Assembly (NCBI GenBank): GCA_001789205.1
Contig: MFYT01000001.1
Location: 1-64,000 of the forward strand
Direction: 5' to 3'
DNA length: 64,000 nucleotides
DNA from: Candidatus Raymondbacteria bacterium RIFOXYA2_FULL_49_16
GTDB lineage: Bacteria; Fibrobacterota; OXYB2-FULL-49-7; XYB2-FULL-49-35
Position numbers and translations under genes: made by a program. Positions 11,666 to 27,611 of the stretch are shown here, one piece after another. How positions within the stretch are numbered: the stretch's first letter is position 1; the number at the start of each line of letters is the position of its first letter. The notes beneath the pieces were generated by a model. That model saw only the letters and a program-made list of their open reading frames with translations. It had not been told where the DNA came from and did not search any database.

Positions 11666-11726
11666 TCTCTCCTCCATTGTGTTAAAGGTTTGACTGTGTT
11701 TCGTCTTGTGCCTTAAAATTGTGCGG

Positions 11727-11756
11727 ATCATAGCAAAATACAATAATTTTAAACAA
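11727..11756 (-). promoter_or_regulatory. Possible sigma-70 promoter of the esterase gene
   Basis: On the minus strand TTGTTT and TATGAT are separated by 18 bases, about 60 bases before the chosen GTG. The -10 is good and the -35 is weak. The divergent DUF2400 gene begins 54 bases away on the other side. Confidence 0.35.
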
Positions 11757-11809
11757 AACACAAAACAAAGAACTTTTCTTTTTAAAATGCTATTTTTATT
11801 AGAACACCT

Positions 11810-12595
11810 ATGAATCCAGAAACAAAACAACGCATACAATCCACATTCAAGCGCTACCATAGACCCGCATGTCTGGCAGACGATCCTCTGTGCGTTGTGC
11901 GCATGTTCGCGCAACCAGCGGACTGGGAAATGGCCGGGCTTGTAGCAGCGGTCCTTGCCTATGGCCGTGTGGAACAGATCATAGCCGCACTGAACAGGAT
12001 TTTTGAGGCAACGGGAAAAAACCTGAGCGCGTTTGTTTTTTCGACAACCTATGGCGAAAAAACCACGGCATTTGCGGGAATAAAACACAGGTTCAACGAC
12101 AGCGTGGATATTGCCCTACTCTTCGAAGGCGTCAAACAAGCCTATGCCCGACACGGAAGCCTGAACAAATTGTTTCTTTCATATTACAAAGAAAACCATT
12201 CAGCAAGCGCATCGCTCATGGAATTCGCGGCGTTTTTCAGGACATGTGCGCGCGCAATATTCGGCAGGGAAAAAAAGTCATTTGCATTTCTGTTCCCCTG
12301 TCCTTCGGCGCAGTCCGCCTGCAAACGCCTGCATTTGTTTCTCCGCTGGATGGTGCGCAAAGACGACGGCATAGACCTGGGGCTGTGGAAGGGCGTTCCC
12401 GCGTCAGCGCTGCTCATACCCGTGGACACGCACATTGCGCGGGCAGCGCGTCTGCTTGGGTTAACAAAACGGTCAGCAGCGGATTGGACAATGGCAGAGG
12501 AAATTACAGCAGAATTGCGTACCCTTGACCCGCACGATCCAATCAAATACGATTTTGCATTGTGTACGGCCGGGAAAATGGGTGTTCGCCCGTAG
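11810..12595 (+). CDS. TIGR02757/DUF2400 family protein
   Basis: A 261-residue cytoplasmic protein that I recognise as the TIGR02757 (DUF2400) family from its N-terminus (DDPLCVVRMFAQPADWEMAG, then AYGRVEQII) and its C-terminal LIPVDTHIARAARLLGLT and LDPHDPIKYDFALC. The VDTH...LGLT and D.P.KYDFALC segments recall the HhH-GPD fold of DNA glycosylases. The molecular role of the family is not established. It is transcribed away from the esterase gene, and its 3' end meets a repeat-rich gap. Confidence 0.85.
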   Translation: MNPETKQRIQSTFKRYHRPACLADDPLCVVRMFAQPADWEMAGLVAAVLAYGRVEQIIAALNRIFEATGKNLSAFVFSTTYGEKTTAFAGIKHRFNDSVDIALLFEGVKQAYARHGSLNKLFLSYYKENHSASASLMEFAAFFRTCARAIFGREKKSFAFLFPCPSAQSACKRLHLFLRWMVRKDDGIDLGLWKGVPASALLIPVDTHIARAARLLGLTKRSAADWTMAEEITAELRTLDPHDPIKYDFALCTAGKMGVRP

Positions 12596-14619: not shown

Positions 14620-14744
14620 GTATTTAAAATGCATAATGCTCTATGTACAAGGCAAACTATTATTCATAGACACATCTGTTTATCAATTCACGAACACGCT
14701 GTCCCGTAACCGCACAAGAGTATGATATTAAGTAAAATAAGCAA

Positions 14745-14760
14745 TGGCATGGCAAATGCT
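14745..14760 (+). promoter_or_regulatory. Sigma-54 promoter (-24/-12) of the thioredoxin unit
   Basis: TGGCATGGCAAATGCT has the invariant GG and GC separated by ten bases and matches TGGCACG-N4-TTGCW in 14 of 16 positions. Transcription would start near 14771, about 26 bases before the thioredoxin ATG. It shares the TGGCATG..ATGCT form with the sites at 16320 and 24324. Confidence 0.7.
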
Positions 14761-14796
14761 TTGTCATTGTTATGTAATTTGAAACAGGAGGCTTTT

Positions 14797-15129
14797 ATGG
14801 AATCTACAAAGAATGTTCTTCATGTCACAGACAGTAACTTCAAGGCTGAGGTCATTGATTCAGACCTGCCAGTGCTTGTGGATTTCTGGGCAGAGTGGTG
14901 TGGGCCCTGCAGAATGCTTGGTCCAACAATTGAAAAAATAGCTGAAAAATACCAGGGCCGGGTAAAGGTCGTAAAGATGAATACAGACGAGGCGCCGCAG
15001 GCGTCCATGGCATATAGCATAGCAGCCATTCCAACGGTCATGCTTTTCAACCATGGCAGTGTTGTGGACACGCTGGTCGGGGTACAGCAGCCAATAATGT
15101 ACGAGCGGTCGCTCGAGAGGGTGGTATAG
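14797..15129 (+). CDS. trxA: Thioredoxin
   Basis: A 110-residue thioredoxin, the small cytoplasmic dithiol reductant. The active site is DFWAEWCGPCRMLGPTIEKI, and the cis-Pro segment is AAIPTVMLFNHG. The ATG at 14797 follows AGGAGG by six bases; an open frame 25 codons longer begins upstream of the promoter and is rejected. The next gene starts one base after the stop and encodes a small membrane protein with an in-frame TGA, so the two are certainly cotranscribed and may be redox partners. A sigma-54 site lies upstream. Confidence 0.95.
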   Translation: MESTKNVLHVTDSNFKAEVIDSDLPVLVDFWAEWCGPCRMLGPTIEKIAEKYQGRVKVVKMNTDEAPQASMAYSIAAIPTVMLFNHGSVVDTLVGVQQPIMYERSLERVV

Positions 15130-15130
15130 C

Positions 15131-15292
15131 ATGGTGGTAAAAATAGTGGTGGTGGTGGCAGGCGGGCTTCTTGGGTTTGCCTACTATAAATTCATCGGCT
15201 GCCACGGTGGCTGAGGGCTGACGGGAAATCCGTTTACCGCCGTAGTTTACGGGGCAGTCGTGGGTCTCATGATCTCTTCGTTTGTTAAATAG
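15131..15292 (+). CDS. DUF6132-like small membrane protein, putative selenoprotein (TGA at codon 28)
   Basis: Reading through an in-frame TGA at 15212-15214 gives 53 residues. The N-terminus is one hydrophobic helix (VVVVAGGLLGFAYYKFIG), then GCHGG-U-GLTGNPF, then a second helix (VVYGAVVGLMISSFVK). As I recall the DUF6132-like family, the pattern is YYKF.GC...G.CPITSNP..., so the TGA falls at or next to the second conserved Cys (spacing here is one shorter). Reading frame, family motif and second helix all continue after the TGA, which argues for selenocysteine and against decay. A hairpin CCGTA-GTT-TACGG (15240-15252) has its loop about 30 bases after the TGA, the usual range for a bacterial SECIS. 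It directly follows thioredoxin. If not recoded, the gene is a truncated 27-residue peptide. Confidence 0.65.
15240..15252 (+). promoter_or_regulatory. Candidate SECIS hairpin in the DUF6132-like gene
   Basis: Five perfect pairs (CCGTA/TACGG) close a GTT loop starting 31 bases downstream of the TGA. A G at the start of the loop and this spacing suit SelB recognition in bacteria. The stem is short, so this is tentative. Confidence 0.35.
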
Positions 15293-15378
15293 AGCTTAAA
15301 AAGCATTGAAAAATAAAACGCTTTAATTTATATTACTTTAGTAGGAAATAACCATACAAAGAGAGTAAGGAGACCAGT

Positions 15379-16185
15379 ATGAAGAGTATAACCCGCACCA
15401 TCATCATCCTCTGTCTTGCGTCCATGGCCCCGGTGTTTGCGGCTGATTCGCTAAAAGTTTCGGTGAACGTGAGCAATCCTCCGAACGGAAACTACGGATC
15501 CAGGTATTTTGTTGTCATGTGGATCGAAAACGCGGCTGGCCAGTTTGTAAAATCCTTTGGCCTCTGGGGCAGGGAAACCAACAGCAATGATTTCCCCATA
15601 TGGAATTCAAAAAATGGCGGTGTTAAAAGCATCGACGGAGTAAGCGCAGCGACATTGAGTTCCTCTCAGACTCTTTCCACAAACTGGAAGTGCACAAACG
15701 CGGCTGGCACCATTGTGACTGAAGGTACCTACTATATCAATATCGAGCTGACCAACCGCCATAGCACCATGCCAAACCCTGGGACCTATTTTGTACGCAC
15801 ACCCATTGTGATTGACCGAGAGGCAAAAACAAAGAGCACGCTTGATTCATCTCTCAATAATGGCGCAACATACATCACCAGCTTTCTGGCAGACTATATT
15901 CCCGACAATTCCACAATTGAATCATTTGGCGCTCTGACCCAGCTCATGGTCACGCCCTATGGATTTGTCATTCCAGCGGGTCTTGCCTCGCAGGTCCGTT
16001 CAGTGCGTCTCTTTTCCATTGACGGAAGACTTATCTGGCAGGACAACCTTCAGAATCGGACTGGCTCTGGCATTGTGATTACCAGAAACAGCTATCAGCA
16101 GAAGGTGCGTGCATCGGGAATCAACTACCTGGTGGCTGATTTCGGGAAGAACATTGTTACGCATCCTGTTGTCAGTGTAAAATAA
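15379..16185 (+). CDS. Exported DUF2271-like protein
   Basis: A 268-residue protein with a clear signal peptide (MKSITRTIIILCLASMAPVFA). Residues about 25-165 read like DUF2271 (YFVVMWIENAAGQFVKSFGLWG, LSTNWKCTNAAGTIVTEGTYYI), a periplasmic domain of unknown function often found near flavin-linked redox proteins. The last 65 residues (VRSVRLFSIDGRLIWQ ... GINYLVADFG) look like a short form of the sorting-like domain seen elsewhere here. It has its own ribosome binding site (GTAAGGAGACC) and is followed by a strong terminator, so it is probably monocistronic. Confidence 0.75.
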   Translation: MKSITRTIIILCLASMAPVFAADSLKVSVNVSNPPNGNYGSRYFVVMWIENAAGQFVKSFGLWGRETNSNDFPIWNSKNGGVKSIDGVSAATLSSSQTLSTNWKCTNAAGTIVTEGTYYINIELTNRHSTMPNPGTYFVRTPIVIDREAKTKSTLDSSLNNGATYITSFLADYIPDNSTIESFGALTQLMVTPYGFVIPAGLASQVRSVRLFSIDGRLIWQDNLQNRTGSGIVITRNSYQQKVRASGINYLVADFGKNIVTHPVVSVK

Positions 16186-16210
16186 CCGGTATTTTTGTTT
16201 TTTTTTTGCC

Positions 16211-16240
16211 CTGGAGTCGTTTTGACTCCAGAGCTTTTTT
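16211..16240 (+). terminator. Rho-independent terminator
   Basis: CTGGAGTC and GACTCCAG form a perfect eight-pair stem with a five-base loop, followed by AGC and a run of six T, 25 bases after the DUF2271-like stop codon. Confidence 0.9.
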
Positions 16241-16319
16241 ATCATACACAACTGTACAGTAATACAAAGAATTCATCATATCGGTCTTATAATCTATTGA
16301 AAAACTTATAAATACGGCT

Positions 16320-16335
16320 GGGCATGGGAAATGCT
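16320..16335 (+). promoter_or_regulatory. Sigma-54 promoter of the HesB-like gene
   Basis: GGGCATGGGAAATGCT keeps GG-N10-GC and matches the sigma-54 consensus in 13 of 16 positions. Transcription would start near 16346, 27 bases before the HesB-like ATG. Confidence 0.65.
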
Positions 16336-16372
16336 ATTATATTTACATCTATTCGAATACGGAGGAACAGTT

Positions 16373-16663
16373 ATGAAGATTACAGCGCTGGCAAAAGAAG
16401 AGCTCGGGAAAATCTTGGTAAAAAAAGGGCAGAAAAACTCACTTTTTCGAATTTTTATTCAGGGTTTTGGCTGAGGCGGGCCCAGATTGGGCATTGCCCT
16501 GGAAGGGCAAAAGAGCGAACGAGATAGTTCTGAAGATGTGCAGGGTTTCACCGTGGTGTACGAAGACAATCTCAAAGGATATATCCGCGACGCAGTGGTG
16601 GACTATCGGAAGAGCTGGTTTGGTGAAGCGGGTTTTGTCGTTGAAACAGGCTATGCCTGCTAA
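16373..16663 (+). CDS. HesB-like selenoprotein (TGA at codon 34)
   Basis: Read through one in-frame TGA (16472-16474), the gene gives 96 residues of the HesB/IscA iron-sulfur carrier fold: MKITALAKEELGKIL, then FRIFIQGFG-U-GGPRLGIAL, then VVYEDNLKGYIRDAVVDY and a C-terminal GFVVETGYAC. In ordinary HesB-like proteins the position after GFG is Cys (GFGCSGP), and HesB-like selenoproteins are an established bacterial family. A hairpin TTGCCC-TGGAA-GGGCAA with loop about 26 bases after the TGA fits a SECIS. GGAGG precedes the ATG by seven bases. The FmdB-like gene begins five bases after its stop. The role of Sec-HesB proteins is not known; redox or iron-sulfur handling is inferred. Confidence 0.85.
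16494..16510 (+). promoter_or_regulatory. Candidate SECIS hairpin in the HesB-like gene
   Basis: TTGCCC (16494-16499) pairs perfectly with GGGCAA (16505-16510) around the loop TGGAA. The loop starts 26 bases after the TGA and contains the GG favoured in bacterial SECIS loops. Confidence 0.55.
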
Positions 16664-16668
16664 AAAAT

Positions 16669-16863
16669 ATGCCGTATTATGATTTCAAATGTACTGGTTG
16701 CGGGAAGGAGTTTGAAGAGAACATTCCCATGAGCCAGACGACCATGCCGGCGTGTCCAGACTGCATGTCGCCTGCAACGGAGAAGCTCATCACCGGTTGC
16801 GCTGTAGGAGGGGGAAAGTCCTCCGGCAACTCCTCCTGCAGCGCCCGCGGCGGCTTTACCTGA
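16669..16863 (+). CDS. FmdB-type zinc ribbon protein
   Basis: A 64-residue zinc ribbon of the FmdB/CxxC-CxxC family: MPYYDFKCTGCGKEFEE, then PACPDCMSPATEKLI. These four cysteines should bind one zinc. The tail is low in complexity and rich in Gly, Ser and Cys (GGGKSSGNSSCSARGG). Members are small DNA- or protein-binding candidates of unclear function. It starts five bases after the HesB-like selenoprotein and has no promoter of its own, so it belongs to the same sigma-54 unit. Confidence 0.85.
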   Translation: MPYYDFKCTGCGKEFEENIPMSQTTMPACPDCMSPATEKLITGCAVGGGKSSGNSSCSARGGFT

Positions 16864-16971
16864 GCCTCCTGATTCTATGGGCCGGTCAGGCCTGAATTGC
16901 CAATAATTATGCTTTAAGCACCAAGGGGCGTTGCTGGTATAAATTGAAGAATGGCGCCCGTACATATATCT

Positions 16972-16987
16972 TGGTAGATATTTTGCA
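16972..16987 (+). promoter_or_regulatory. Sigma-54 promoter of the regulator operon
   Basis: TGGTAGATATTTTGCA has GG-N10-GC and an ideal TTGCA at -12; the -24 half is weaker. The start would be near 16998, 56 bases before the regulator ATG, which would make the regulator autoregulated. Confidence 0.55.
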
Positions 16988-17053
16988 TTTGGCGCCTGGG
17001 TTTCATGCGGCTTTCTTTGCCCGGTAATATTTTGTATTTTATTCCAATACAAT

Positions 17054-18850
17054 ATGATACCCGCCAGCCTGTTATTCTTATGCACCCAAAATTCCTGCCG
17101 CAGCCAGATGGCCGAAGGGTTTGCCCGTCAATTTGCCCCTGCTGAGGTGTTTATCGCAAGCGCAGGCATGGAACCCTCTACTGTGCATCCCCTTGCCATT
17201 GAAACCATGTCCCAGTTTGGCGTGGATATTTCAGGACACATTTCAAAATCGATCAGGGAATTCGGGTCCCGCAACTTTGACTTGATTATTACCTTGTGCG
17301 ACAACGCACGCCAGAAATGTCCAATTATGCCCGGCTCCCCCACTGTTGTCCATTGGAACCTCGAAGATCCGGCAACAGGCGGCGGATCGCGCGAAGAGAT
17401 ACGTGAACGGTTTAAACAGGGTGCAACGGTCATACGCCAGCTCTGTTATGATTTATTCAACCGCGGCTATTTTTATTCACTTGTCCAAAACAAGAAAAAC
17501 ACCGACAATATTCTCAATGCCCTGCCCCAGGGAATTATTGGCCACGATCTGAACAGGAAAATTTTTCTTTTTTCGAGCGAGGCGGAGAGAATCACCGGAT
17601 ATGTCCAGAACGAAGTGTTGGGCCGCGACTGCCACCAGATATTTGACAACAATCTCTGCGGCGAAAACTGCGCCTTTTTCGATGACAAGGGTCGCATGCC
17701 CGAAACCCACTGTTCATATGATACCACTTACAAGACAAAAAACGGTTCGTTTAAGGAAATTACAATGACCGTGATTCCCCTGCGCAACGAGCGACAGGAG
17801 ACCACGGGAGTCCTTGCTTCCCTGGTCGATCGCACTGTGCTCAAGCATTCGCACCGGCGGACCGAGGAGCCCTTCAGGTTCGGCGACATCATTGGCCAGG
17901 ACCATAAGATGCAGCTTATCTACGACCTTATCGAAGACCTGTCTGACAGCGACGTGCCGGTCATCATCAGCGGCGAAAGCGGTACGGGTAAGGAGATCAT
18001 CGCCCATGCCATACACGCGGCAAGCGGTCGGCGCGACAAGGTCTTTGTTCCGGTCAACTGCGGCGCGCTTCCCGAGGGCACGCTTGAAAGCGAGCTCTTT
18101 GGCCATGTCAAAGGCGCGTTTACCGGGGCAATGCGCGATAAAAAAGGCCGCTTTGAGCTGGCCCATACCGGTACGCTCTTTCTCGACGAGGTGGGCGAAC
18201 TCACCCTACCCATGCAGGTGAAGCTGCTCCGCGTGCTCCAACACGGCACCTTTGAGCCAGTGGGCGGTGAAAAGACCGTGACCGTGGACGTGCGCGTGAT
18301 CAGCGCCACAAACCGCAACCTCAAGGACATGGTCGCAAAGGGTACTTTCAGGGAAGACCTCTATTACCGTCTGGCGGTCATTCCTATTGATGCGCCGCCT
18401 TTACGCCACAAAAAGAACGACATTCCCCTTCTTGCCAATGAGTTTCTTGCCCGGGTAAACCGCGAGACCCGCAGGAATTTTTCCTTTTCGGCCGAGGCCA
18501 TGAAGACCCTGGTGGAATACGCCTGGCCCGGCAATGTACGGCAGTTGCAGAACGCGATCCAATATGCCACTATTAAAAGCCGTAAGGAGCAGGTCCTGCT
18601 TCCCAATCATTTTCCCCACGAAGTGGCAAACGCTGCTGCGCAGCTTGGCCAGCCTGGTGCTGACGGCGCTTTTGCCCATGCGTCCAGACCTGGCAGGAAA
18701 CCCAAACTCAATGCTGCGGCCGTGGAGCTTGCGCTCGCAAAAAGCGGGGGCAACAAGGCAAAGGCTGCGCGCATGCTGGGTGTGGGACGCGCGACATTGT
18801 ATAATTTCATGAACGAACACAACGGAACACTGGAGGATAGCCATGTTTAA
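17054..18850 (+). CDS. ArsC/LMW-phosphatase-PAS-sigma54 AAA+-Fis fusion regulator
   Basis: A 598-residue enhancer-binding regulator with an enzyme-like front. Residues 3-140 are a low-molecular-weight phosphatase/thioredoxin-type arsenate reductase domain with an intact C-X5-R loop (LFLCTQNSCRSQMAEGFA) and DPATGGG. Residues about 150-260 form a PAS domain with clustered cysteines (GRDCHQIFDNNLCGENCAFF, THCSYD), which could sense redox state or hold a metal cluster. The AAA+ domain follows with GESGTGKE (about 306), GAFTGA for sigma-54 contact (about 354) and TLFLDEVGEL (about 374). The Fis-type helix-turn-helix ends the protein (GGNKAKAARMLGVGRATLY). It overlaps the next gene by 8 bp. I infer that it controls the sigma-54 sites of this region. 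Confidence 0.92.
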   Translation: MIPASLLFLCTQNSCRSQMAEGFARQFAPAEVFIASAGMEPSTVHPLAIETMSQFGVDISGHISKSIREFGSRNFDLIITLCDNARQKCPIMPGSPTVVHWNLEDPATGGGSREEIRERFKQGATVIRQLCYDLFNRGYFYSLVQNKKNTDNILNALPQGIIGHDLNRKIFLFSSEAERITGYVQNEVLGRDCHQIFDNNLCGENCAFFDDKGRMPETHCSYDTTYKTKNGSFKEITMTVIPLRNERQETTGVLASLVDRTVLKHSHRRTEEPFRFGDIIGQDHKMQLIYDLIEDLSDSDVPVIISGESGTGKEIIAHAIHAASGRRDKVFVPVNCGALPEGTLESELFGHVKGAFTGAMRDKKGRFELAHTGTLFLDEVGELTLPMQVKLLRVLQHGTFEPVGGEKTVTVDVRVISATNRNLKDMVAKGTFREDLYYRLAVIPIDAPPLRHKKNDIPLLANEFLARVNRETRRNFSFSAEAMKTLVEYAWPGNVRQLQNAIQYATIKSRKEQVLLPNHFPHEVANAAAQLGQPGADGAFAHASRPGRKPKLNAAAVELALAKSGGNKAKAARMLGVGRATLYNFMNEHNGTLEDSHV

Positions 18851-19313
18851 TGCCGACGAATTGTTTGCCATGGGAATTGAGATTGAAAAGAACGGCGCCG
18901 CCTTTTATCAGGCCGCTGCTGTGGCCGCGGGTCCGGGTGCGGCGCAGCGTCTGTTTACCGAGTTGTATGAATGGGAGCTGGACCATGTGGCCTTGTTTGA
19001 AAAGCTGCACGATAAAGCGGTTGCAGGGAAGAAATACAGCAAGGTCGAGGATACTGATGGATTGGGCCGCGCTTATCTTACTGCAATGGCCGCGAACCAT
19101 GTTTTTACCGGCGCGAGCAATCCCGCTACTATGGCTAAAAAATGCAAGGGGCCGCGCCAGGTCATTGAAATTGCCATGCAATTTGAGAAAGACTCAGTGG
19201 CCCTCTACGCGGGCATGAAAGGCCTGGTACCCAGGGAACTGGGAAGAAAGCATATTGATACGCTTATTCACGAGGAAGTGAAGCATATTGGCATGCTTCA
19301 GAAGAAGCTTTAA
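18843..19313 (+). CDS. Ferritin-like (rubrerythrin-fold) protein
   Basis: A 156-residue four-helix protein of the ferritin/rubrerythrin superfamily. Glu and His residues expected for a diiron site appear as GIEIEKNGAAFYQAA (helix 1), YEWELDHVALFEKL (helix 2), IAMQFEKDSVALYAGM (helix 3) and LIHEEVKHIGML (helix 4). There is no rubredoxin domain. The ATG follows GGAGGATAGCC and overlaps the regulator by 8 bp, so its level is tied to the regulator. A role in peroxide or oxygen removal is inferred from the fold and the neighbours. Confidence 0.88.
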   Translation: MFNADELFAMGIEIEKNGAAFYQAAAVAAGPGAAQRLFTELYEWELDHVALFEKLHDKAVAGKKYSKVEDTDGLGRAYLTAMAANHVFTGASNPATMAKKCKGPRQVIEIAMQFEKDSVALYAGMKGLVPRELGRKHIDTLIHEEVKHIGMLQKKL

Positions 19314-19330
19314 AAAAGGACTTTCAAACA

Positions 19331-20050
19331 ATGGCAGAGGAACATGCCGGTGTTGTACGGGAGAAAAAAGCGCTGACACACGACATTGTTAATCTCCGGA
19401 TACAGCTGCGCGAACCAGACCATATGGTATTCAGGGCGGGCCAGATCATACGGTTGTCTAGTCAACCCTATGGCGACAAGCCAAGCGTCACACGCACCTA
19501 TTCAATCGGGTCGCTTCCGTCCGACGCGGGGTTCATTGAATTGAATATCAAGCGTGCGCCCGATGGTGTTTGCACCACCTGGGTCTTTGACCATCTGCAG
19601 GAGGGCCAGGATGTCCGTTTTCAGGGGCCTTTTGGAAAATTCATGCTATCAGCGTCCTCAGCCCCGGCTATCATGATAGCGGGCGGCAGCGGGCTTGGCC
19701 CAATCAGGGCTTTTGCCATGGAGATGCGGGAAAAGGGCATGGTAAAAACCACCTGGTGTTTTTTTGGCGCACAAACTCACCGCGATTTGTACTATCGTGA
19801 TGATTTTTCACGGTTCGAGAAGGAATTGCCTGATTTTAAGTTTGTTCCCGCGCTTTCGAATGAGCCTGCTGAAAGCAATTGGCAGGGAGAGCGGGGACTG
19901 GTCACAGACGTGGTCAAACGGAGTATTCAGGACCTGAACGGGTGGGAGGCCTATTTGTGCGGTCCGCCGGGCATGATCGAAGCATGCCTTAAAATCCTGC
20001 AGGAAAAGGGCATCAGGGATATGGATGTTTATTATGATAAATTCGCATGA
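19331..20050 (+). CDS. FAD/NAD(P)-binding ferredoxin reductase-type oxidoreductase
   Basis: A 239-residue flavin reductase of the ferredoxin-NADP reductase family. The FAD domain shows RTYSIGS, and the NAD(P) domain shows IMIAGGSGLGPIRAFAMEM, FFGAQTHRDLYY and LCGPPGMIEACLKIL. There is no iron-sulfur domain. It follows the ferritin-like gene by 17 bases with AAAAAGGAC upstream, so it is the third gene of the regulator operon. It may supply electrons from NAD(P)H to the diiron proteins or rubredoxin nearby; that partnership is inference. Confidence 0.88.
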   Translation: MAEEHAGVVREKKALTHDIVNLRIQLREPDHMVFRAGQIIRLSSQPYGDKPSVTRTYSIGSLPSDAGFIELNIKRAPDGVCTTWVFDHLQEGQDVRFQGPFGKFMLSASSAPAIMIAGGSGLGPIRAFAMEMREKGMVKTTWCFFGAQTHRDLYYRDDFSRFEKELPDFKFVPALSNEPAESNWQGERGLVTDVVKRSIQDLNGWEAYLCGPPGMIEACLKILQEKGIRDMDVYYDKFA

Positions 20051-20116
20051 TGCAGGGGCGTCATTCTGCCACACTGGCCAAGATTGGTGCATAATGCAGG
20101 GACGTCATTCTGCCAC
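20051..20116. repeat. Tandem GGGGCGTCATTCTGCCAC repeat
   Basis: Two copies of TGCAGGG(G/A)CGTCATTCTGCCAC, 44 bases apart, directly follow the reductase stop codon. They match the inverted repeat at 12627-12673 and so belong to a dispersed intergenic family. Confidence 0.65.
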
Positions 20117-20154
20117 GCGTACCAAGATCAATAAATGACATTTGTAAAATATTT

Positions 20155-21813
20155 ATGAAAAACAGCAACATAGTATTCAAAGGCATTTCTATTAGCCCGG
20201 GAAAAGTGGCTGCTCCAGCGTGCCTTTTCTCCTCTCAGTTTCACCGAACGGTTCCTGAATACCAGCTTGCCAATCAGACTGAAATCAGCAACGAACTCGA
20301 CCGGCTGCATGAAGTGCTGGGCGCCTGTACTGTTGAGCTCGATACGGCCTACCGGCGGACCGTGGAAAAAATCGGCAAAGCAGAGGCCGATATTTTTATG
20401 GTGCAACGCGAAATCATGCTCGACAAGGTCATTGTCGAACGCATTGTGGCCGAGATACGCGACAAACGGAAAAACGCCGAACACGCGATTTTTTCAGTGT
20501 ATAACAGCTATGAAGAACAGTTTATGGCCCTCGAAGACCAGTACCTAAAGGGGCGCGCGCACGATATCGTGGACATACGGCAGCGGCTCCTGGGCCACCT
20601 GAAAAAAGTGCATCCGGTTTTTATCTGTGAAGGTCAGGACCACTGTATGCGCGGCCAGGACCGTATAATCGTCACCCAGGCGCTCTCACTTTCCATGATA
20701 ACCCATATCAATGCTTCCCGGGTAAAGGGTTTTATCACTGAGCACGGCGGGCCTTCGTCGCATGCTGCCATTATCGCCCGTACACTCGGCGTTCCCGCGG
20801 TCAGCGGTGTGCACAATATCATGGACGCGATCCACTGCAGCGATATTGTCGTGGTCGACGGCGACCGGGGCGAGGTCATCCTCCGTCCTGATGCAAAAAC
20901 CATTGTGCAGGTGCGGGTAGAGGAGGAAAAGCGGACCACCAGGCAGTTCGCGGTCCTGTCTCCCAAGGGTACGGAAGTGCTTGCGAACGCCAGTTCGATC
21001 GAGGATGTGACCAAGGCAGCGCAGCTCAACGCCGATGGCATAGGCCTTTTCAGGACCGAGTTTATTTTCATTAGGTCAGACCGTCTGCTTTCCGAAGAAG
21101 AGCAGTTTGAATACTACGCGCAGGCTGCGGCGCTTATGGAAGGAAAGCCGGTTACTTTCCGGATGCTCGACGTGGGCGGCGACAAACCGCTTCCGTTCCT
21201 GAATATTGAAAAAGAGGACAATCCCTATCTGGGATGGCGCGGTTCACGGTTCCTTCTTGACAATCCTGATGTGCTTGCGGCCCAGGTGCGGGCGCTTGCC
21301 CGTCTTTCACGGCTGCGTGAAGCGCGCATGCTCTTCCCCATGGTCGTTGATGTACGCCAGCTCCAATTGCTTCTGCGGGCGCGCAACGACGCGCTCGAAT
21401 CCTTTGACTACAACCCAGCGAATTTGAAGACCGGGGTCATGATTGAGGTGCCGGGCGCCATTTACGAACTAGACAAAATGCTTAATCTGGTTGATTTCGC
21501 GTCCATTGGATCGAACGACCTTATCCAATACCTTTTTGCCGTTGACCGGAACAATGAACACGTGGGCGAGGGCTATGACCAGGACCATCCGGTTTTATGG
21601 AAAGTGCTTGAAGAAATAAGCCAGAAGGCGCGCGCGGCGAAAAAGCCGGTGTCGCTATGCGGAGAAATGGCGGCTGTGCCGGGAATTCCGGGCAGGCTCA
21701 TGGCCATCGGCATTTCGTCGATGAGTGTGAGCCCGCCCTATATTCCTACAGTGCGGGACGAACTGATCAGCTTTTCCAGAGACCGTGCAGATTGCAATAC
21801 GCCCTCGCCGTAA
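20155..21813 (+). CDS. ptsI: Phosphoenolpyruvate-protein phosphotransferase (Enzyme I)
   Basis: A 552-residue Enzyme I, which takes phosphate from phosphoenolpyruvate and passes it to HPr. The phosphorylated His lies in [19 protein letters not shown] (about residue 202), and the PEP-binding barrel shows [40 protein letters not shown] and the catalytic Cys in SLCGEMA near the end. Length is slightly below the usual 570. No HPr, HPr kinase or sugar-specific component is in the window. There is no obvious ribosome binding site before the ATG. Its last 47 bases overlap the convergent desulfoferrodoxin gene. Confidence 0.95.
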
Positions 21814-22141
21814 TGCTCGCGGCATTGACCGCAAAGGCGGCTTCGGGTTTGTCGCCGGGTTTCAGCATCTTGCGGATGACTTTTGTGTCGGTTATCAGCT
21901 CAATGAATTCAATGTAGTGCTTCTCTTCCATGGGATGGGCGACTGACCCAACCCGGACGGTCACGGAGTCGCCTGTTTTTTCTATGATCGGCACGTGTTT
22001 TTCCTTGGCCGCGTCGACCGAGTTTTCCATGAGCAGATTCATGTCCTTGCCGCAGCAGACCAGCGTTCCGCCGCCTGCGTGCGTCACCTCAACGATGTTG
22101 CCGCACACGCCGCACTTGTAGAGTTGGTTTATTGCAATCAT
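21767..22141 (-). CDS. dfx: Desulfoferrodoxin (superoxide reductase)
   Basis: A 124-residue two-iron superoxide reductase that reduces superoxide to peroxide without making oxygen. Residues 1-36 are the desulforedoxin domain ([18 protein letters not shown], then CCGKDM), whose four cysteines bind one iron. The catalytic iron ligands are visible as [24 protein letters not shown] and the final CNLHG. The start is the ATG after GAGGAG; a longer frame adds 29 basic residues and is rejected. It is last in the rub-fprA-ftn-dfx operon and its 3' end overlaps ptsI by 47 bp in convergent orientation. Confidence 0.95.
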
Positions 22142-22184
22142 TGGTTTTCTCCTCTTTGTTTTTTGTTTATGGTAGATATATATA

Positions 22185-22207
22185 CGTAGTGGCGAGTCAC
22201 CCCTACG
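22185..22207. repeat. Short palindrome CGTAGTGG...CCCCTACG
   Basis: A 23-bp inverted repeat (arms CGTAG.GG and CC.CTACG) overlaps the ferritin stop codon and lies in the gap before dfx. It recalls the GTAGGGG type of dispersed element and could stabilise or attenuate the message between the two genes. Confidence 0.4.
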
Positions 22208-22736
22208 CACCCGCTCCCGGATTCGCACCGGTTGCCGGGGGTGGGGTATAGACGCGCTTCGCAGCCTCAGTATCCAGCATCATGAGCGCGGGGCCGCTTG
22301 CCCCCGCCATTTTCACCTTGTTCAGCAATTTGTCGAAATTCGCTTCTTCCTCAATTTGTTCGGTCACGTACCATTGCAGAAAGGTCTGGACCGAACGGTC
22401 CTTTTCCTTTTCAGCAATGTCGACCAGGTTGCTGATGGAGGCGGTCACGAACTGTTCATGTTCGAATCCCGCCCTGAACACCTCTTCGGGCGATTTGAAA
22501 TCCGCCTGCGGCGCGGCAATGGCTTTGAGCGCCACCCGCGCGCCTTTGTCGTGCAGGAAATTAATGAACTTCGTGGCGTGGAAGTGCTCTTCCTGGGTCT
22601 GCACCATCATCCAATTGACAAACCCGTCAAGGTTTTGCGCCGCGAAAAAATCGGCCATTGCCAGATACAGATATTCGGAAAAAAGCTCCTTGTTTATTTG
22701 GTCGTTTATGGCTTCCTGAAGTTTTGGGGAAAGCAT
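22203..22736 (-). CDS. ftnA: Ferritin
   Basis: A 177-residue bacterial non-haem ferritin that oxidises and stores iron in a 24-subunit shell. Ferroxidase ligands are visible in [19 protein letters not shown] (helix A), [16 protein letters not shown] (helix B, E..H) and the helix C/D segment [15 protein letters not shown]. The last 20 residues are a Pro/Ala/Gly-rich tail beyond the normal fold. It starts 22 bases after fprA, with GGAG upstream, and sits between fprA and dfx in one operon. Confidence 0.93.
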
Positions 22737-22758
22737 GGGGTACTCCTATTGGTTTAAG

Positions 22759-23922
22759 TTACGTGATTGCCTTGATAACGGTTTCCCGTACCGAGGACAG
22801 ATCGTCCTGCGAGGGAATGTATTTCACTTTCAGGGGATTCATCATTGTCCAGCCGCACTCCTTCAGGACATCGTTCACCTGTTCGATGCTCTGTCCGCCC
22901 CATCCATAGCTTCCAAAGGCAAGGCCAATCCGGTTTTTGGGTGCAAGACCTTTCATATAGGTCAAAAACGCGGCGACCGTTGGAAGCAGATTATTGTTAA
23001 GAGTGGGGGATCCCACACAGACATACTGCGCGGTCATAATCTCGGTCATAATGTCGGACATATGGTTGTGCTGCAAACTTGCCATCACCACGGGAACGTC
23101 CTTTTCCTCAAAACCGCTACGTATGGCAGCGGCCATCTTGGCAGTTGAGTCCCACATGGTGTCGTATACGATCACGGCCTTGCGGCCGGTTATGTTTGCC
23201 GACCATGCCTGGTAACGTTTCAGAATTTCCGGAACGTGGGCGCGCCATGCAATGCCATGGCTGGGAGCTATAAGGCGTATGGGCAGTCCCGCAAGCGCTT
23301 CGAGCGCTTTCTGCACCTGTGCGCCATAGGGAAGCACGATGTTCGCGTAGTACTTCATTGCCTCGGCAAGAATGGTCTCAAGAGGATATTCGTCGTCAAA
23401 CCTTTCGGCAGAGGCAATGTGCTGTCCAAAGGCGTCGTTTGAAAAGAGGATTTTTTCCTCGGGGCACCACGTCACCATATTGTCGGGCCAGTGGACCATG
23501 GGCGTATGGGTAAACGCGAGGGAATGTTTGCCAAGGGAGAGTGTCTCCCCGTTTTTCACTGCCTTGAAATTCCAGTTATTTTTAAAATGTTCTTTGAGGC
23601 CCTTTTCCCCGTTGGGAGAAGTGAAGAGCGTGGCATTGGGCGCTTTTTCAAGGACCGCGGGCAATCCGCCCGAATGGTCCATTTCAACATGGTTGGCGAC
23701 CACATAGTCGATTTTTGCCGGATCAACCACCTGCGAAACGCGCTCAAACAGTTCGTCAGTAAGATAGTGCTTTACCGTGTCAATGAGAGTGATTTTCTCA
23801 TCTATTATAAGATAGGCATTGTAGGTTGACCCGCGCTGGGTAAGGTATCCATGAAAATTGCGCAGGTTCCAGTCAATGCCCCCTACCCAATAGATTGATT
23901 CGGCAAGCTGAACCGGCTTCAT
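22759..23922 (-). CDS. fprA: Flavodiiron protein (oxygen or nitric oxide reductase)
   Basis: A 387-residue A-type flavoprotein. Residues 1-250 are a metallo-beta-lactamase-like domain with diiron ligands in [12 protein letters not shown] (H-x-E-x-D-H), a later His in PMVHWPDNM, and an Asp in SNDAFGQH; residues about 255-387 are a flavodoxin domain ([40 protein letters not shown]). Such enzymes reduce oxygen to water, or NO, with electrons from rubredoxin. The rubredoxin gene directly upstream overlaps it by four bases (ATGA), so the pair is translationally coupled. Confidence 0.95.
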
Positions 23923-24083
23923 GCGTCTATTTCCTCAAAATCCTCTTTGCCCACGCCGCATTCGGGGCAGGTCCAATCTTCGGGTACTGCACTAAACGGG
24001 GTTCCGGCAGGAACATTGTTGTCAGGATCGCCTTTTACGGGATCGTAGATGTAACCGCAGACTGTGCATTTGAACTTTTTCAT
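23919..24083 (-). CDS. rub: Rubredoxin
   Basis: A 54-residue rubredoxin: [20 protein letters not shown] near the start and [16 protein letters not shown] near the end give the two CxxCG pairs that bind one iron. Length and the conserved aromatic residues are typical. The ATG follows GGAGG by five bases. Its stop overlaps the fprA start. It is the first gene of the operon and lies 36 bases from a minus-strand sigma-54 site, so it should be the electron donor produced together with the flavodiiron protein. Confidence 0.96.
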
Positions 24084-24119
24084 CCATTCCTCCGGTTTGT
24101 AAGTTTATTTATTAGAAAC

Positions 24120-24135
24120 AGCAAATTGCATACCT
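24120..24135 (-). promoter_or_regulatory. Sigma-54 promoter of the rub-fprA-ftn-dfx operon
   Basis: On the minus strand AGGTATGCAATTTGCT has GG-N10-GC with an ideal TTGCT. The predicted start near 24109 leaves a 26-base leader with a good ribosome binding site before rub. Confidence 0.6.
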
Positions 24136-24245
24136 TTGCATTTAAAACGATTATGCCTTTAAATTTCAGTTAGTTAATAGCCTGTTGGAAAAAGATATAT
24201 AATGCTGGAGATGTTTAACAACATGAATAGAACCGGAACAGAAAT

Positions 24246-24257
24246 GTATTGAAATAC
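24246..24257. promoter_or_regulatory. Possible activator-binding palindrome
   Basis: GTATTGAAATAC has five-base arms and lies between two divergent sigma-54 sites, about 110 bases from the minus-strand one and 67 from the other, a normal place for an enhancer. A related GTACAGTAATAC lies about 60 bases upstream of the HesB-like promoter. The match is short. Confidence 0.3.
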
Positions 24258-24323
24258 GGTTTTTTATTTGGCAAGTATTGTTTTTCCCAGGCAGTTGCTT
24301 GTAAAACAAGGGCATAACCGCAT

Positions 24324-24339
24324 TGGCATGTATAATGCT
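24324..24339 (+). promoter_or_regulatory. Sigma-54 promoter of the small gene/ferritin-like unit
   Basis: TGGCATGTATAATGCT has GG-N10-GC and matches the consensus in 14 of 16 positions, nearly identical to the thioredoxin promoter. The predicted start near 24350 leaves almost no leader before the first ATG of the small gene. Confidence 0.65.
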
Positions 24340-24353
24340 TTTTAATTTATATT

Positions 24354-24554
24354 ATGAAATTATGCAATGAAAACATACAGAGAGCGCTCGAACTCTCCCG
24401 GGAGCTCATGGTGCTTTCTGACAAGGGAGACCTTGAACGGGAAGACGACAGCTGCGGGGTGCTCTACGGCATTGTCAGGGATGCCGCCTATAGTATCAGA
24501 AACAGCGCTCTATCGGAAAAGGAAAAGCACGTCATTTCAACCACATGGGGGTAA
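24354..24554 (+). CDS. Small conserved-looking hypothetical protein
   Basis: A 66-residue acidic, probably helical protein (ALELSRELMVLSDKGDLERE, then DDSCGVLYGIVRDAAYSI). I cannot name a family with certainty, although the pattern of a single Cys in DSCGVLYG followed by a helical RDAAY segment resembles small hypothetical proteins found near rubrerythrins in anaerobes. No signal peptide or membrane segment is visible. It begins about four bases after the predicted sigma-54 start, so it may be translated from an almost leaderless message. The ferritin-like gene follows after four bases, so they are one unit. Confidence 0.65.
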   Translation: MKLCNENIQRALELSRELMVLSDKGDLEREDDSCGVLYGIVRDAAYSIRNSALSEKEKHVISTTWG

Positions 24555-24558
24555 AAGA

Positions 24559-25011
24559 ATGGAATCAGCAACAGTACAGGGGTTGATTGATTTTGCCATT
24601 GGCGAGGAACGAAGCGCTTTTTCACTCTATACGGAATTGGCCCAGCGCCTCAGCGACCAAGGTTCCAAAACAATGCTCAGGGACATGGCTGCCATGGAAA
24701 AAGGACACGAACAGAAACTCCTAGATTTAAAGAAGGGTGTTGTTGAGAAACTTGAGACAGTGCCTGTTCCAGACCTGAAAATAGGCGATTTTCTCATTGA
24801 TGTGAAAGTAACCCCAGAGAGCTCGATCCAGGAGGTGCTCGTTTTCGCGATCAAATCAGAGATGAAGGCGAACAAACTCTATACAGAGCTCTCGGGAAAA
24901 ATGGAATCGACCGAGGCCAAAAAGCTCCTGCTGGCCCTTGCATCCGAGGAACAAAAGCATAAAAACGATCTCGAACGCGCCTACGACGATATGATAAACA
25001 GGGAAAACTGA
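24559..25011 (+). CDS. Ferritin-like (rubrerythrin-fold) protein
   Basis: A 150-residue four-helix diiron-type protein: DFAIGEERSAFSLYTELAQ, then MAAMEKGHEQKLLDL, VLVFAIKSEMKANKLYTEL and LALASEEQKHKNDLERAYDD carry the expected Glu and E..H residues. There is no C-terminal rubredoxin domain. The ATG at 24559 is close behind the small gene, so I reject a longer overlapping frame that starts inside it. A peroxidase-like role is inferred from the fold and from the shared sigma-54 promoter. It ends three bases from the convergent pgl gene. Confidence 0.85.
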   Translation: MESATVQGLIDFAIGEERSAFSLYTELAQRLSDQGSKTMLRDMAAMEKGHEQKLLDLKKGVVEKLETVPVPDLKIGDFLIDVKVTPESSIQEVLVFAIKSEMKANKLYTELSGKMESTEAKKLLLALASEEQKHKNDLERAYDDMINREN

Positions 25012-25014
25012 TTT

Positions 25015-25656
25015 TCAGGGAAGAAGCGCTCTTTCAATGTATACTTCATAATCGCGGCACAGCGAAAGTACCCGGACCGCCGGAAGGGACGCATCGCCAT
25101 TGAGCAGTGCTTTGACAACCTGCTGTTTGCCGTTCCCGGCTACTATGAGCACCACCATGCGGGCGGTGCCTATGGCAGCTGGTGAAAGTGAAAGGCGTTG
25201 TATGGGCTGGACAGGGCTTTGGGTGGCAATGACCGGCGCCAGGGTATTATAATAGTTTCCACCGGGAAAAAGGCTTGCTGTGTGTCCGTCGTTTCCCATG
25301 CCCAGAAAAATTGTGTCAAAGACCGGAAGGCCCGGGCCAAAATGTTCTTTGAGAAGATCAGTATACTGTTCGACTGATGCGGGCCAGTTGTGCGCGTCTT
25401 TGGACCGGCCTACTGAGGACAAAAACACACGGGCCGCCTGCCCCCAGTTGCTGTCCGGATCGTCAAAAGGCACCAGGCGTTCATCGACAGGGAAAAAGGC
25501 CGTGTGCATGCAGCGGGGTGAACACGCGATCCATTCGGTAAAAAGCGTCGCATAGGTCGGCCCGCCTGAAAGCGCCACTAATGGTTTTTCAAGATGGCGC
25601 AGGGTGGCGAGGGCAACGTCGCCAATTGAATCAAAGGGATGAGGATGCACAATCAT
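25015..25656 (-). CDS. pgl: 6-phosphogluconolactonase
   Basis: A 213-residue protein of the NagB/RpiA fold that hydrolyses 6-phosphogluconolactone, step two of the oxidative pentose phosphate path. Motifs are VALSGGPTYATLF, FFPVDERLVPFDDPDSNWGQ and DTIFLGMGNDGHTASLFPGG. I use the ATG at 25656; the frame extends three codons to a TTG. The path's first enzyme, zwf, is encoded 630 bases away on the other strand, with rubrerythrin between them, which suggests NADPH supply for peroxide defence. Confidence 0.92.
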   Translation of the reverse strand: MIVHPHPFDSIGDVALATLRHLEKPLVALSGGPTYATLFTEWIACSPRCMHTAFFPVDERLVPFDDPDSNWGQAARVFLSSVGRSKDAHNWPASVEQYTDLLKEHFGPGLPVFDTIFLGMGNDGHTASLFPGGNYYNTLAPVIATQSPVQPIQRLSLSPAAIGTARMVVLIVAGNGKQQVVKALLNGDASLPAVRVLSLCRDYEVYIERALLP

Positions 25657-25707
25657 ATAGAACAATTTACTATTTTTTCAACCTGTTTTTCATTAAAGGA
25701 GGTATTG

Positions 25708-26283
25708 ATGGCACAGATGAAGGGAAGTAAAACCGAAAAAAACCTGCTCAAATCGTTCGCAGGAGAATCGCAGGCGCGCAACCGCTACACCTATTTCGCG
25801 AGCATTGCGAAAAAAGAGGGATATATCCAGATTTCAAACATCTTTTCTGAGACCGCGGACAACGAGAAGGAGCACGCCAAGCGCATGTTCAAGTTTCTCG
25901 AAGGCGGCGTGGTCGAGATTACCGCTTCGTATCCAGCGGGCAAACTGGGCACAACGGCCGAAAACCTTGCGGCTTCAGCAGCAGGGGAAAATGAAGAGTG
26001 GACAGAGCTTTATCCTTCGTTTGCCAAGACCGCGCGCGAGGAAGGGTTCGAAGATGTCGCGAAAATGTACGAGGCCATTTCAATTGCCGAGAAGCAGCAT
26101 GAAAAACGCTACAACGATCTTCTTGCAAATATAAAGGCGAGCACTGTTTTGAAAAAAGCCTCGGCAATCACCTGGCGCTGTTCCAACTGCGGGTATATCC
26201 ACAAAGGAGCGGAAGCGCCCAAGACGTGTCCCGCGTGCGCGCATCCCCAGGTCTATTATGAGGTGCTTGCCGAGAATTGGTGA
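25708..26283 (+). CDS. rbr: Rubrerythrin
   Basis: A 191-residue classical rubrerythrin, an NADH-linked peroxidase of anaerobes. The diiron domain shows NLLKSFAGESQARNRYTYFA, ADNEKEHAKRMFKFL, AAGENEEWTELYPSFAKTAR and SIAEKQHEKRYNDLL. Residues about 155-191 form the rubredoxin domain (WRCSNCGYIHKGAEAPKTCP, then ACAHPQVYYEVL). AAAGGAGG stands seven bases before the ATG. zwf starts two bases after the stop, so the two are cotranscribed. No sigma-54 site was found upstream. Confidence 0.96.
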   Translation: MAQMKGSKTEKNLLKSFAGESQARNRYTYFASIAKKEGYIQISNIFSETADNEKEHAKRMFKFLEGGVVEITASYPAGKLGTTAENLAASAAGENEEWTELYPSFAKTAREEGFEDVAKMYEAISIAEKQHEKRYNDLLANIKASTVLKKASAITWRCSNCGYIHKGAEAPKTCPACAHPQVYYEVLAENW

Positions 26284-26285
26284 TA

Positions 26286-27611
26286 ATGGCTGAACGAAAA
26301 GCGATTGTTATCCTCGGCGCTTCGGGCGATCTTGCTAAAAGGAAGCTTGTTCCTGCGCTCAATGCCTTGAACCAGAATAAACGGCTTGATCCTGATACTA
26401 TCATAGTAGGGTCAGGCCGCACATTTTTTTCTGACCAGGCTTTCAGGAATCGGTTTAATGCTCCAGAAGGGTTTAGAGAGCTGCTGTATTATCACCAGGG
26501 TATTCAGGGGCTCAAACAGTTTATCGAAGAGAAGGGCGCTTTTTCCCGCATTGTTTTTTTCTGCGCCCTGCCTCCCTCAACGTATGGCCAAACCGCCCAA
26601 GAGCTCAGGGCCGAGGGCTTTGGCAAAGAGGCAGCGCTTATTATTGAAAAGCCCTTTGGATACGACCGCGCGTCCGCACAGGTGCTCAATACCGAGCTGA
26701 CAAAATATTTTAATGAAACACAGATATTCAGGATTGACCATTATCTTGCAAAGGAAGCAGTGCAAAACATTTTAGTGTTCAGGTTCGCTAATCCAGTTTT
26801 CACTCCTGTCTGGAACAGCGAGTGCATTGAATCGATCCAAATTAACGCATTCGAATCTGAGGGCGTTGCAGACCGGGGTGCGTATTTCGACAGCGCGGGC
26901 ATTGTGCGCGACATGATTCAGAACCATCTTATTCAACTCCTTTGTCTCTTAACCATGGATGTGCCTGTGTCCCTGAACGCGGAGGAGATACAAAAGAAGA
27001 AAATATCGGTGCTCAAGACCATGCAGGTGCTTTCCTGCAACCGCTTCCAATACCAGGGATATCACGATGAAAAAGGCGTGGCACCCGGTTCTACAACAGA
27101 GACCTTTGCCGAACTGAAGCTTGTCATCAATAATCCCCGTTGGAAGGGCGTGCCGGTTTATATCAGGGCAGGCAAGGCCATGAACCGGAAAGGGACCGAG
27201 ATCGGGATACGGCTCAAACCCCTGCCCAATCTTTTATTCAATGAAAAAGGCGCTGTACAGCCCAACAAGATTGTTTTTCTCATCCAGCCAATGCCGGGCA
27301 TTGTACTCGATGTGGCTACAAAAATTCCCGGAAAGCACTATCAGATCGCGCAGACGCCCATGAAATTCTGCTATCGCGATTCTTTTGACAGTAATATTCC
27401 CGAGGCATACCAGAAGCTGCTCGAGGATGCGCTCAACAACGACCGTACGCTTTTTGTCAGCGCCAAGGAGGCCGAAGCGTCGTGGGAGTTGTTCGGTCCG
27501 GTCCTCGACGCGGGCAAGGTGGAAGGCTACGAAAAGTTTGCATTACCGTTTACCCGATTCTCCTTTGACTGGATAGATTTTGAACGGTATCCAGGCGCCT
27601 GTTCGAAGTAA
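26286..27611 (+). CDS. zwf: Glucose-6-phosphate 1-dehydrogenase
   Basis: A 441-residue enzyme that oxidises glucose 6-phosphate to the lactone and makes NADPH. The nucleotide-binding site is AIVILGASGDLAKRKLVPAL, the phosphate/active site motif is RIDHYLAKEAVQNILVFRFA, and PVYIRAGKAMNRK lies in the second half. The C-terminal region is shorter than in the 490-residue enzymes. The ATG starts two bases after rubrerythrin; a TTG three codons earlier would overlap it. The metF start lies 43 bases downstream. Confidence 0.94.
   Translation: MAERKAIVILGASGDLAKRKLVPALNALNQNKRLDPDTIIVGSGRTFFSDQAFRNRFNAPEGFRELLYYHQGIQGLKQFIEEKGAFSRIVFFCALPPSTYGQTAQELRAEGFGKEAALIIEKPFGYDRASAQVLNTELTKYFNETQIFRIDHYLAKEAVQNILVFRFANPVFTPVWNSECIESIQINAFESEGVADRGAYFDSAGIVRDMIQNHLIQLLCLLTMDVPVSLNAEEIQKKKISVLKTMQVLSCNRFQYQGYHDEKGVAPGSTTETFAELKLVINNPRWKGVPVYIRAGKAMNRKGTEIGIRLKPLPNLLFNEKGAVQPNKIVFLIQPMPGIVLDVATKIPGKHYQIAQTPMKFCYRDSFDSNIPEAYQKLLEDALNNDRTLFVSAKEAEASWELFGPVLDAGKVEGYEKFALPFTRFSFDWIDFERYPGACSK

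Follow-up and report, generated by a model that had tools for sequence, protein, structure and literature searches.

A likely sigma-54-dependent oxidative-defence regulon with a candidate ArsC-PAS activator in Candidatus Raymondbacteria and its relatives

Promoters read by sigma-54 polymerase are silent without an ATP-consuming activator, and PerR and OxyR, the quite different regulators that usually govern target genes of the kind considered here, act without sigma-54. A described case in which such an activator switches on a gene of this kind is that of NorR and norVW in E. coli, where flavorubredoxin is activated through sigma-54 (PMC2941729). Here, we describe a 64,000-nucleotide (nt) stretch of Candidatus Raymondbacteria bacterium RIFOXYA2_FULL_49_16 (contig MFYT01000001.1, positions 1 to 64,000; hereafter the window), in which the gene for a regulator, here called REG, stands among genes of oxygen and redox defence that are preceded by -24/-12 sites. 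We consider it likely that these genes form a sigma-54-dependent oxidative-defence regulon with REG as its enhancer-binding protein. The regulator is:

17054..18850, plus strand: REG, a sigma-54 activator of the order ArsC/LMWPc, PAS, AAA+ (GAFTGA), Fis-type helix-turn-helix (HTH); profile matches and alignment

By analogy, NorR is the nearest functional parallel of REG, being likewise a one-component sigma-54 activator with a Fis-type HTH and upstream enhancer sites (PMC2941729). The two differ in that NorR senses nitric oxide (NO) by a GAF domain with non-haem iron, whereas REG has ArsC and PAS domains and no GAF, and the predicted targets of REG serve superoxide, peroxide and iron defence, unlike the NorR regulon; against the NorR model REG scores 330 bits, with a cut-off of 476. 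A second likeness is to PrdR of Clostridioides difficile, which governs proline reductase and whose NCBIfam model gives 347.8 bits over REG residues 139-588 without reaching its cut-off of 795, the difference being the ArsC domain of REG. The N-terminal 130 residues of REG, which in this genome include the three redox cysteines, resemble the thioredoxin-coupled ArsC of the pI258/B. subtilis type, but the REG domain is fused to a regulator and its catalytic cysteine is gone in about half of the orthologs. The locus is unlike the PerR and OxyR systems in the -24/-12 promoters of the window. Many one-component PAS activators are described in the sigma-54 regulomes of Desulfovibrio vulgaris and the Clostridiales (PMC4641369, PMC6615313); a regulator like REG appears in neither paper, the terms rubrerythrin, superoxide and arsenate were not found in their text, and the D. 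vulgaris table contains no oxidative-defence regulon. No earlier description of an ArsC-fused sigma-54 activator or of such a regulon was found in the open literature, most subscription papers lying outside the search.

The promoter sites were scored with a sigma-54 matrix composed from the known consensus rather than derived from a database, and all coordinates are those of the window. An earlier note on this DNA had pointed to five 16-mers with GG-N10-GC, and each of them is present at its position and on its strand:

14745..14760, plus strand: sigma-54 -24/-12 site TGGCATGGCAAATGCT, 5' of thioredoxin; score 15.2, the top of the window
16320..16335, plus strand: sigma-54 site GGGCATGGGAAATGCT, 5' of the HesB-like selenoprotein; score 11.4, shuffle p 0.0018
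16972..16987, plus strand: sigma-54-like site TGGTAGATATTTTGCA, 5' of REG; score 12.3, doubtful as a genuine promoter
24120..24135, minus strand: sigma-54 site AGGTATGCAATTTGCT, 5' of rubredoxin; score 13.9, shuffle p 0.0002
24324..24339, plus strand: sigma-54 site TGGCATGTATAATGCT, 5' of the gene for a 66-aa protein; score 15.2, kept before homologs

The genes that follow four of these sites, with those downstream of the rubredoxin and 66-aa genes, are:

14797..15129, plus strand: thioredoxin (PF00085 1.1e-29)
16373..16663, plus strand: HesB/IscA-like selenoprotein, TGA read as selenocysteine at residue 34 (IscA_HesB_Se 4.1e-11, under cut-off)
23919..24083, minus strand: rubredoxin, first gene of its run (PF00301 5.2e-24)
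22759..23922, minus strand: flavodiiron protein (PF19583, PF00258; anaerobic NO reductase flavorubredoxin model 4.2e-124)
22203..22736, minus strand: non-haem ferritin (PRK10304 3.5e-33)
21767..22141, minus strand: desulfoferrodoxin (superoxide reductase; dfx_rbo 4.4e-59, above cut-off; start 22141 read from the sequence)
24354..24554, plus strand: unnamed 66-aa protein, a conserved regulon marker (homologs; helical hairpin model)
24559..25011, plus strand: rubrerythrin-like ferritin-fold protein (PF02915 9.5e-19)

From the GC of the -12 region to the gene start the distance is 39 nt for thioredoxin (ATG 14797, preceded by aggagg; the open-reading-frame finder's start at 14722 was not used), the selenoprotein (ATG 16373) and rubredoxin (start 24083, minus strand), 69 nt for REG (ATG 17054) and 17 nt for the 66-aa gene (ATG 24354). 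It is this placement that sets the sites apart, since of the 12 best sites five are correctly oriented and 12-90 nt away from the gene start that follows, where 2.8% of strand positions belong to such a zone (P = 1.2e-5); all five cluster inside 10 kb. When each upstream region is shuffled for composition, the observed score is equalled in 0.02-0.18% of cases. The genome also has a single rpoN, with one match above cut-off (G000:C23), the lack of which the earlier note had named as fatal to its proposal. As a group, with the exception of 16972, sites with a TGGCAYG-N4-TTGCW-like core at promoter distance are beyond chance and conserved, and we infer that the window sites of this group are transcribed as sigma-54 promoters. 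The core TGGCATGNNNNATGCT occurs six times in the 5.4-Mb genome, where about 0.65 would be expected by simple arithmetic, and with one mismatch it gives 53 matches against 12 for the reversed pattern. Because some such matches fall within genes or next to other activators, the TGGCATG..ATGCT that the earlier note had seen as common to three of the sites is the general sigma-54 core; as a regulon signature it was rejected, being found also before unrelated genes (L004, L050).

What these promoters appear to share beyond the core is an upstream element of consensus about GTMTWTCAATACA-N4-TGT, also written GTATTTCAATACA-N4-TGT, with the dyad GTATT-N2-AATAC inside it. A Gibbs search over the 260 nt upstream of the promoters scored 173.2 with the window sequences included (159-161 when shuffled), and 247.1 against 204-211 when run on 23 non-window promoters only, some of which had been picked following the hypothesis. 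A matrix made without window data ranks 24238 first, 16246 second and 14672 seventh among all positions of the 64 kb, the elements being:

24238..24257, minus strand: upstream element GTATTTCAATACATTTCTGT, common to the divergent rubredoxin and 66-aa promoters; the window's best
16246..16273: overlapping upstream elements before the selenoprotein gene, GTATTACTGTACAGTTGTGT (16246, minus strand) and GTACAGTAATACAAAGAATT (16254, plus strand); score reached by 0.6% of random stretches
14672..14691, minus strand: weak upstream element GTGAATTGATAAACAGATGT before thioredoxin; score equalled by 2.6% of random stretches

The palindrome at 24246, named in the earlier note as a region to test for binding, lies inside the first of these, which tops the 64 kb even with a matrix from other genomes, and for GTMTWTCAATACANNNNTGT position 24238 is the sole exact match in the whole genome. 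Twelve other sigma-54 promoters of this genome are at background for the element in 10 cases and weak in two. Dyad counts aimed at finding an element gave nothing above shuffles. An early exact form, GTCYANNWATACANNNNTGT, was dropped as not specific by itself because about half of its 13 matches in 168 genomes lie outside the set with REG and are without sigma-54 sites. A scan with an earlier form of the element did point to a new sigma-54 promoter before the desulfoferrodoxin gene (dfx) of G019, and when other genomes were later scanned with the element alone, further sigma-54 sites came to light in front of a lipoprotein-peroxiredoxin pair and a rubrerythrin gene in G021 and a PNPOx-like gene in G066. 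A gene for Ku (DNA end-joining; L344, G019:C61) has a one-mismatch element and a weak sigma-54 site, and the regulon may extend to the repair of oxygen damage. The genome's own sigma-54 promoters without the element include those of flgB, a PEP-utilising-enzyme-like protein and a BON-like protein (L040, L054, L157).

The predicted regulon is seen again in other families of the phylum, where promoters, targets, regulator and upstream element correspond. A sigma-54 site precedes dfx in 7/10 genomes with REG and in 0/6 without it (p = 0.010). Within the phylum, 14 of 168 genomes (the source genome included) encode a homolog of the 66-aa protein. Of 16 homologs, the Verrucomicrobia and Lentisphaerae copies included, 11 are preceded within 110 nt by a sigma-54 site in sense and none by one in antisense, with a shuffle mean of 0.03, and the 66-aa gene co-occurs with REG, being present in 8/13 genomes that carry REG and 2/48 that do not (p = 1.6e-5). 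The two genes adjoin in G023, L058 and L059; in the latter two, which are Verrucomicrobia and Lentisphaerae copies, the homolog lies just 3' of REG, and in G023 the order is peroxiredoxin, desulfoferrodoxin, 77-aa protein, 66-aa protein, REG, led by the near-perfect sigma-54 consensus TGGCACGCCTCTTGCA. Among flavodiiron orthologs, a sigma-54 site was found upstream only in G045 and G033.

The 66-aa protein has no match in Pfam or NCBIfam; it is predicted to form a two-helix hairpin, and a fold search with this model gave no significant match. Its family (L222-L235, L058, L059) has the pattern ...D-x2-C-G-V-x-x-G-I-x-RD-x-AY...W, with one invariant cysteine, and serves as a marker of the regulon in two or more groups beyond the phylum. 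In the window its mRNA would be nearly leaderless (24337-24354, 17 nt past the -12 GC), the distance in most homologs being 35-69 nt.

REG has the features of an enhancer-binding protein, namely a GAFTGA AAA+ domain, a Fis-type HTH and rpoN in the same genome. Its domains are LMWPc at 7-133, PAS at 151-257 and Sigma54_activat at 279-445 (PF00158 3.7e-70, GAFTGA at residue 354), followed by HTH_8 (PF02954 1.3e-8), the recognition helix of which is almost unchanging among orthologs of the phylum. The window copy keeps C10, C15, R16, C82 and C89 of B. subtilis ArsC (1jl3), and with them the thioredoxin-type loop Cys10-X4-Cys-Arg-Ser together with Cys82 and Cys89, while falling below the cut-offs of TIGR02691 (116.1 against 174.3) and PRK13530 (98.2 against 215). 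The earlier description of this protein, with GAFTGA, a Cys-rich PAS domain and an ArsC/LMW-phosphatase domain with its catalytic residues, is thereby borne out. Several families of the phylum have orthologs that are 46-58% identical, and further ones are found in Desulfobacterales, Verrucomicrobia and Lentisphaerae. The PAS cysteines C193, C202 and C206 are retained in 15 of 17 orthologs, missing only in the Verrucomicrobia and Lentisphaerae copies, and all three ArsC redox cysteines in five of the 17, which points to PAS as the general sensor, with the ArsC-like part as an optional second. Residues 193-209 (window about 17630-17680) form the Cys-rich PAS motif DC[HQ]-x7-xCG-x2-C, often with another cysteine two residues further, a possible metal or iron-sulfur site.

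We propose that REG acts as a one-component enhancer-binding protein, most likely binding GTATTTCAATACA-N4-TGT elements that in most cases lie 45-160 bp before a -24/-12 promoter, and that on a redox or oxygen signal it would remodel sigma-54 polymerase at its target promoters. In the window the targets would be the rubredoxin-flavodiiron-ferritin-desulfoferrodoxin run, the divergent pair of the 66-aa and rubrerythrin-like genes and the HesB-like selenoprotein, with thioredoxin as a probable further one. That REG itself binds the element, and that it responds to oxygen or reactive oxygen species, we infer; as sensing site the PAS cysteines are the best guess, and in copies of REG that still have them the ArsC cysteines could supply a further thiol input. 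Because the thioredoxin gene belongs to the probable regulon, feedback through the surviving ArsC cysteines is suggested, whereby thioredoxin might reduce the ArsC disulfide and so exert negative feedback.

The regulon could be real and yet be served by another activator that binds the element, with REG a neighbour that has separate targets, which we hold to be unlikely. The genome has at least 21 sigma-54-activator-like places, so that the link between REG and the element rests on co-occurrence and gene linkage; there is no element upstream of REG, and the 66-aa promoter also occurs in two genomes, G053 and G070, that yielded no complete REG. Those two assemblies are, however, incomplete (86% and 77%), and the adjoining of REG and the 66-aa gene in three loci, their co-occurrence and the absence of dfx sites from all six genomes without REG speak against a different activator. 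Along with the number of activators and these two genomes, several results weigh against the regulon as we propose it: G021, G049 and G037 carry REG and lack a sigma-54 site before dfx, a Gibbs run limited to 12 non-window sequences gave no coherent form of the motif, exact element matches in G033:C53 and G065:C68 have no sigma-54 site, and elements with zero or one mismatch differ from those with two in their sigma-54 association only at p = 0.06. The raw count of sites in the 64 kb is at chance level (12 at score >= 11 against 12.1 expected), so that density alone proves nothing. Equal density had been set out beforehand as evidence against the promoters, and it is also what would favour chance GG-N10-GC matches, an explanation that we find very improbable, as the placement of the sites departs from chance and, with conservation and the upstream element, contradicts it for 24324, 24120 and 16320.

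Other alternatives concern the signal. REG might act like NorR on NO, with the flavodiiron protein as an NO reductase; the best match of that protein is indeed the anaerobic NO reductase flavorubredoxin model, and NorR drives flavorubredoxin from sigma-54 promoters (PMC2941729), but Pfam finds no GAF domain in REG, and in relatives superoxide reductase, peroxiredoxin, ferritin and rubrerythrin account for most of the targets, which makes this rather unlikely. An answer to arsenate, another oxyanion or phosphotyrosine, with the redox genes following because oxyanion stress is oxidative, would suit the full set of catalytic ArsC residues in this genome's REG. It is, in our view, quite unlikely, since the catalytic Cys10 is replaced by Asp or Ser in 9/17 orthologs and the three redox cysteines remain in five, while the dfx and 66-aa promoters persist there, and no ars gene is among the targets found. 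The joint redox regulon of the earlier note accordingly stands as a sigma-54 system of oxygen and redox defence, on promoters, element and conservation, with oxyanions unsupported as its general signal.

The sigma-54-dependent regulon under REG does not appear to include REG itself. Most REG orthologs belong to operons of the order TIGR02757, PtsI, regulator that have no sigma-54 site; G023, with its peroxiredoxin operon, is the exception. Autoregulation through 16972, which the earlier note had taken for the regulator's own promoter, was rejected, as the upstream region scores at background for the element and the site has no conserved counterpart before most orthologs; for this site only, a chance match remains plausible. 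A TIGR02757/DUF2400 gene lies directly 5' of PtsI-REG or REG in L190, L193, L194, L196-L199, L055 and L056, a linkage that spans several families and Desulfobacterales, the window copy (11810-12595) standing apart. Directly 3' of REG, L197 (10782-11867) and L198 (minus-turned, 11012-12166) encode outer-membrane-like proteins with no Pfam match, each with a strong sigma-54 site.

The remaining genes of the locus are:

16669..16863, plus strand: FmdB-type zinc ribbon protein (PF09723 3.9e-13, TIGR02605), probably co-transcribed with the selenoprotein gene
18843..19313, plus strand: ferritin-like/rubrerythrin-like protein, overlapping the REG stop; weak Pfam matches
19331..20050, plus strand: FAD/NAD(P) oxidoreductase (PF00175, PF00970)
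20155..21813, plus strand: PtsI-like phosphoenolpyruvate phosphotransferase (profile match), directly 5' of REG in most relatives

Homologs of the ferritin-like protein at 18843..19313 adjoin the 66-aa gene in relatives. Desulfoferrodoxin is the last gene of the minus-strand rubredoxin run, which extends from 24083 down to 21767. The HesB/IscA-like protein has an in-frame TGA in a genome with selenocysteine machinery, including a tRNA-Sec above cut-off; its HesB family matches (4e-11 to 5e-9) are all under cut-offs, and a selenocysteine insertion sequence may follow the TGA, the predicted hairpins having z = -1.06. In the window (25015-27611) and in several relatives (L244-L247, L192, L193, L197), glucose-6-phosphate dehydrogenase, sometimes together with 6-phosphogluconolactonase, stands beside the defence genes, and the response may extend to the supply of NADPH.

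A wider and more tentative idea is that in some lineages (part of the phylum, some Desulfobacterales, Verrucomicrobia and Lentisphaerae) the main oxygen and superoxide response might be governed by an ArsC-PAS activator and sigma-54 rather than by PerR or OxyR. The PAS triad C-x8-C-x3-C would then be the usual sensor, the fused arsenate reductase, alive or decayed by lineage, a thiol switch whose state thioredoxin both reads and resets, and the 66-aa hairpin the activator's feedback partner. If the regulon is as we propose, it would give anaerobes a tight on/off switch for oxygen defence, unlike the de-repression of PerR or the direct activation by OxyR. It would also offer testable functions for an enzyme-regulator fusion, a Cys-rich PAS motif and an unnamed small protein family, and its cis element would allow target lists to be drawn up genome by genome.

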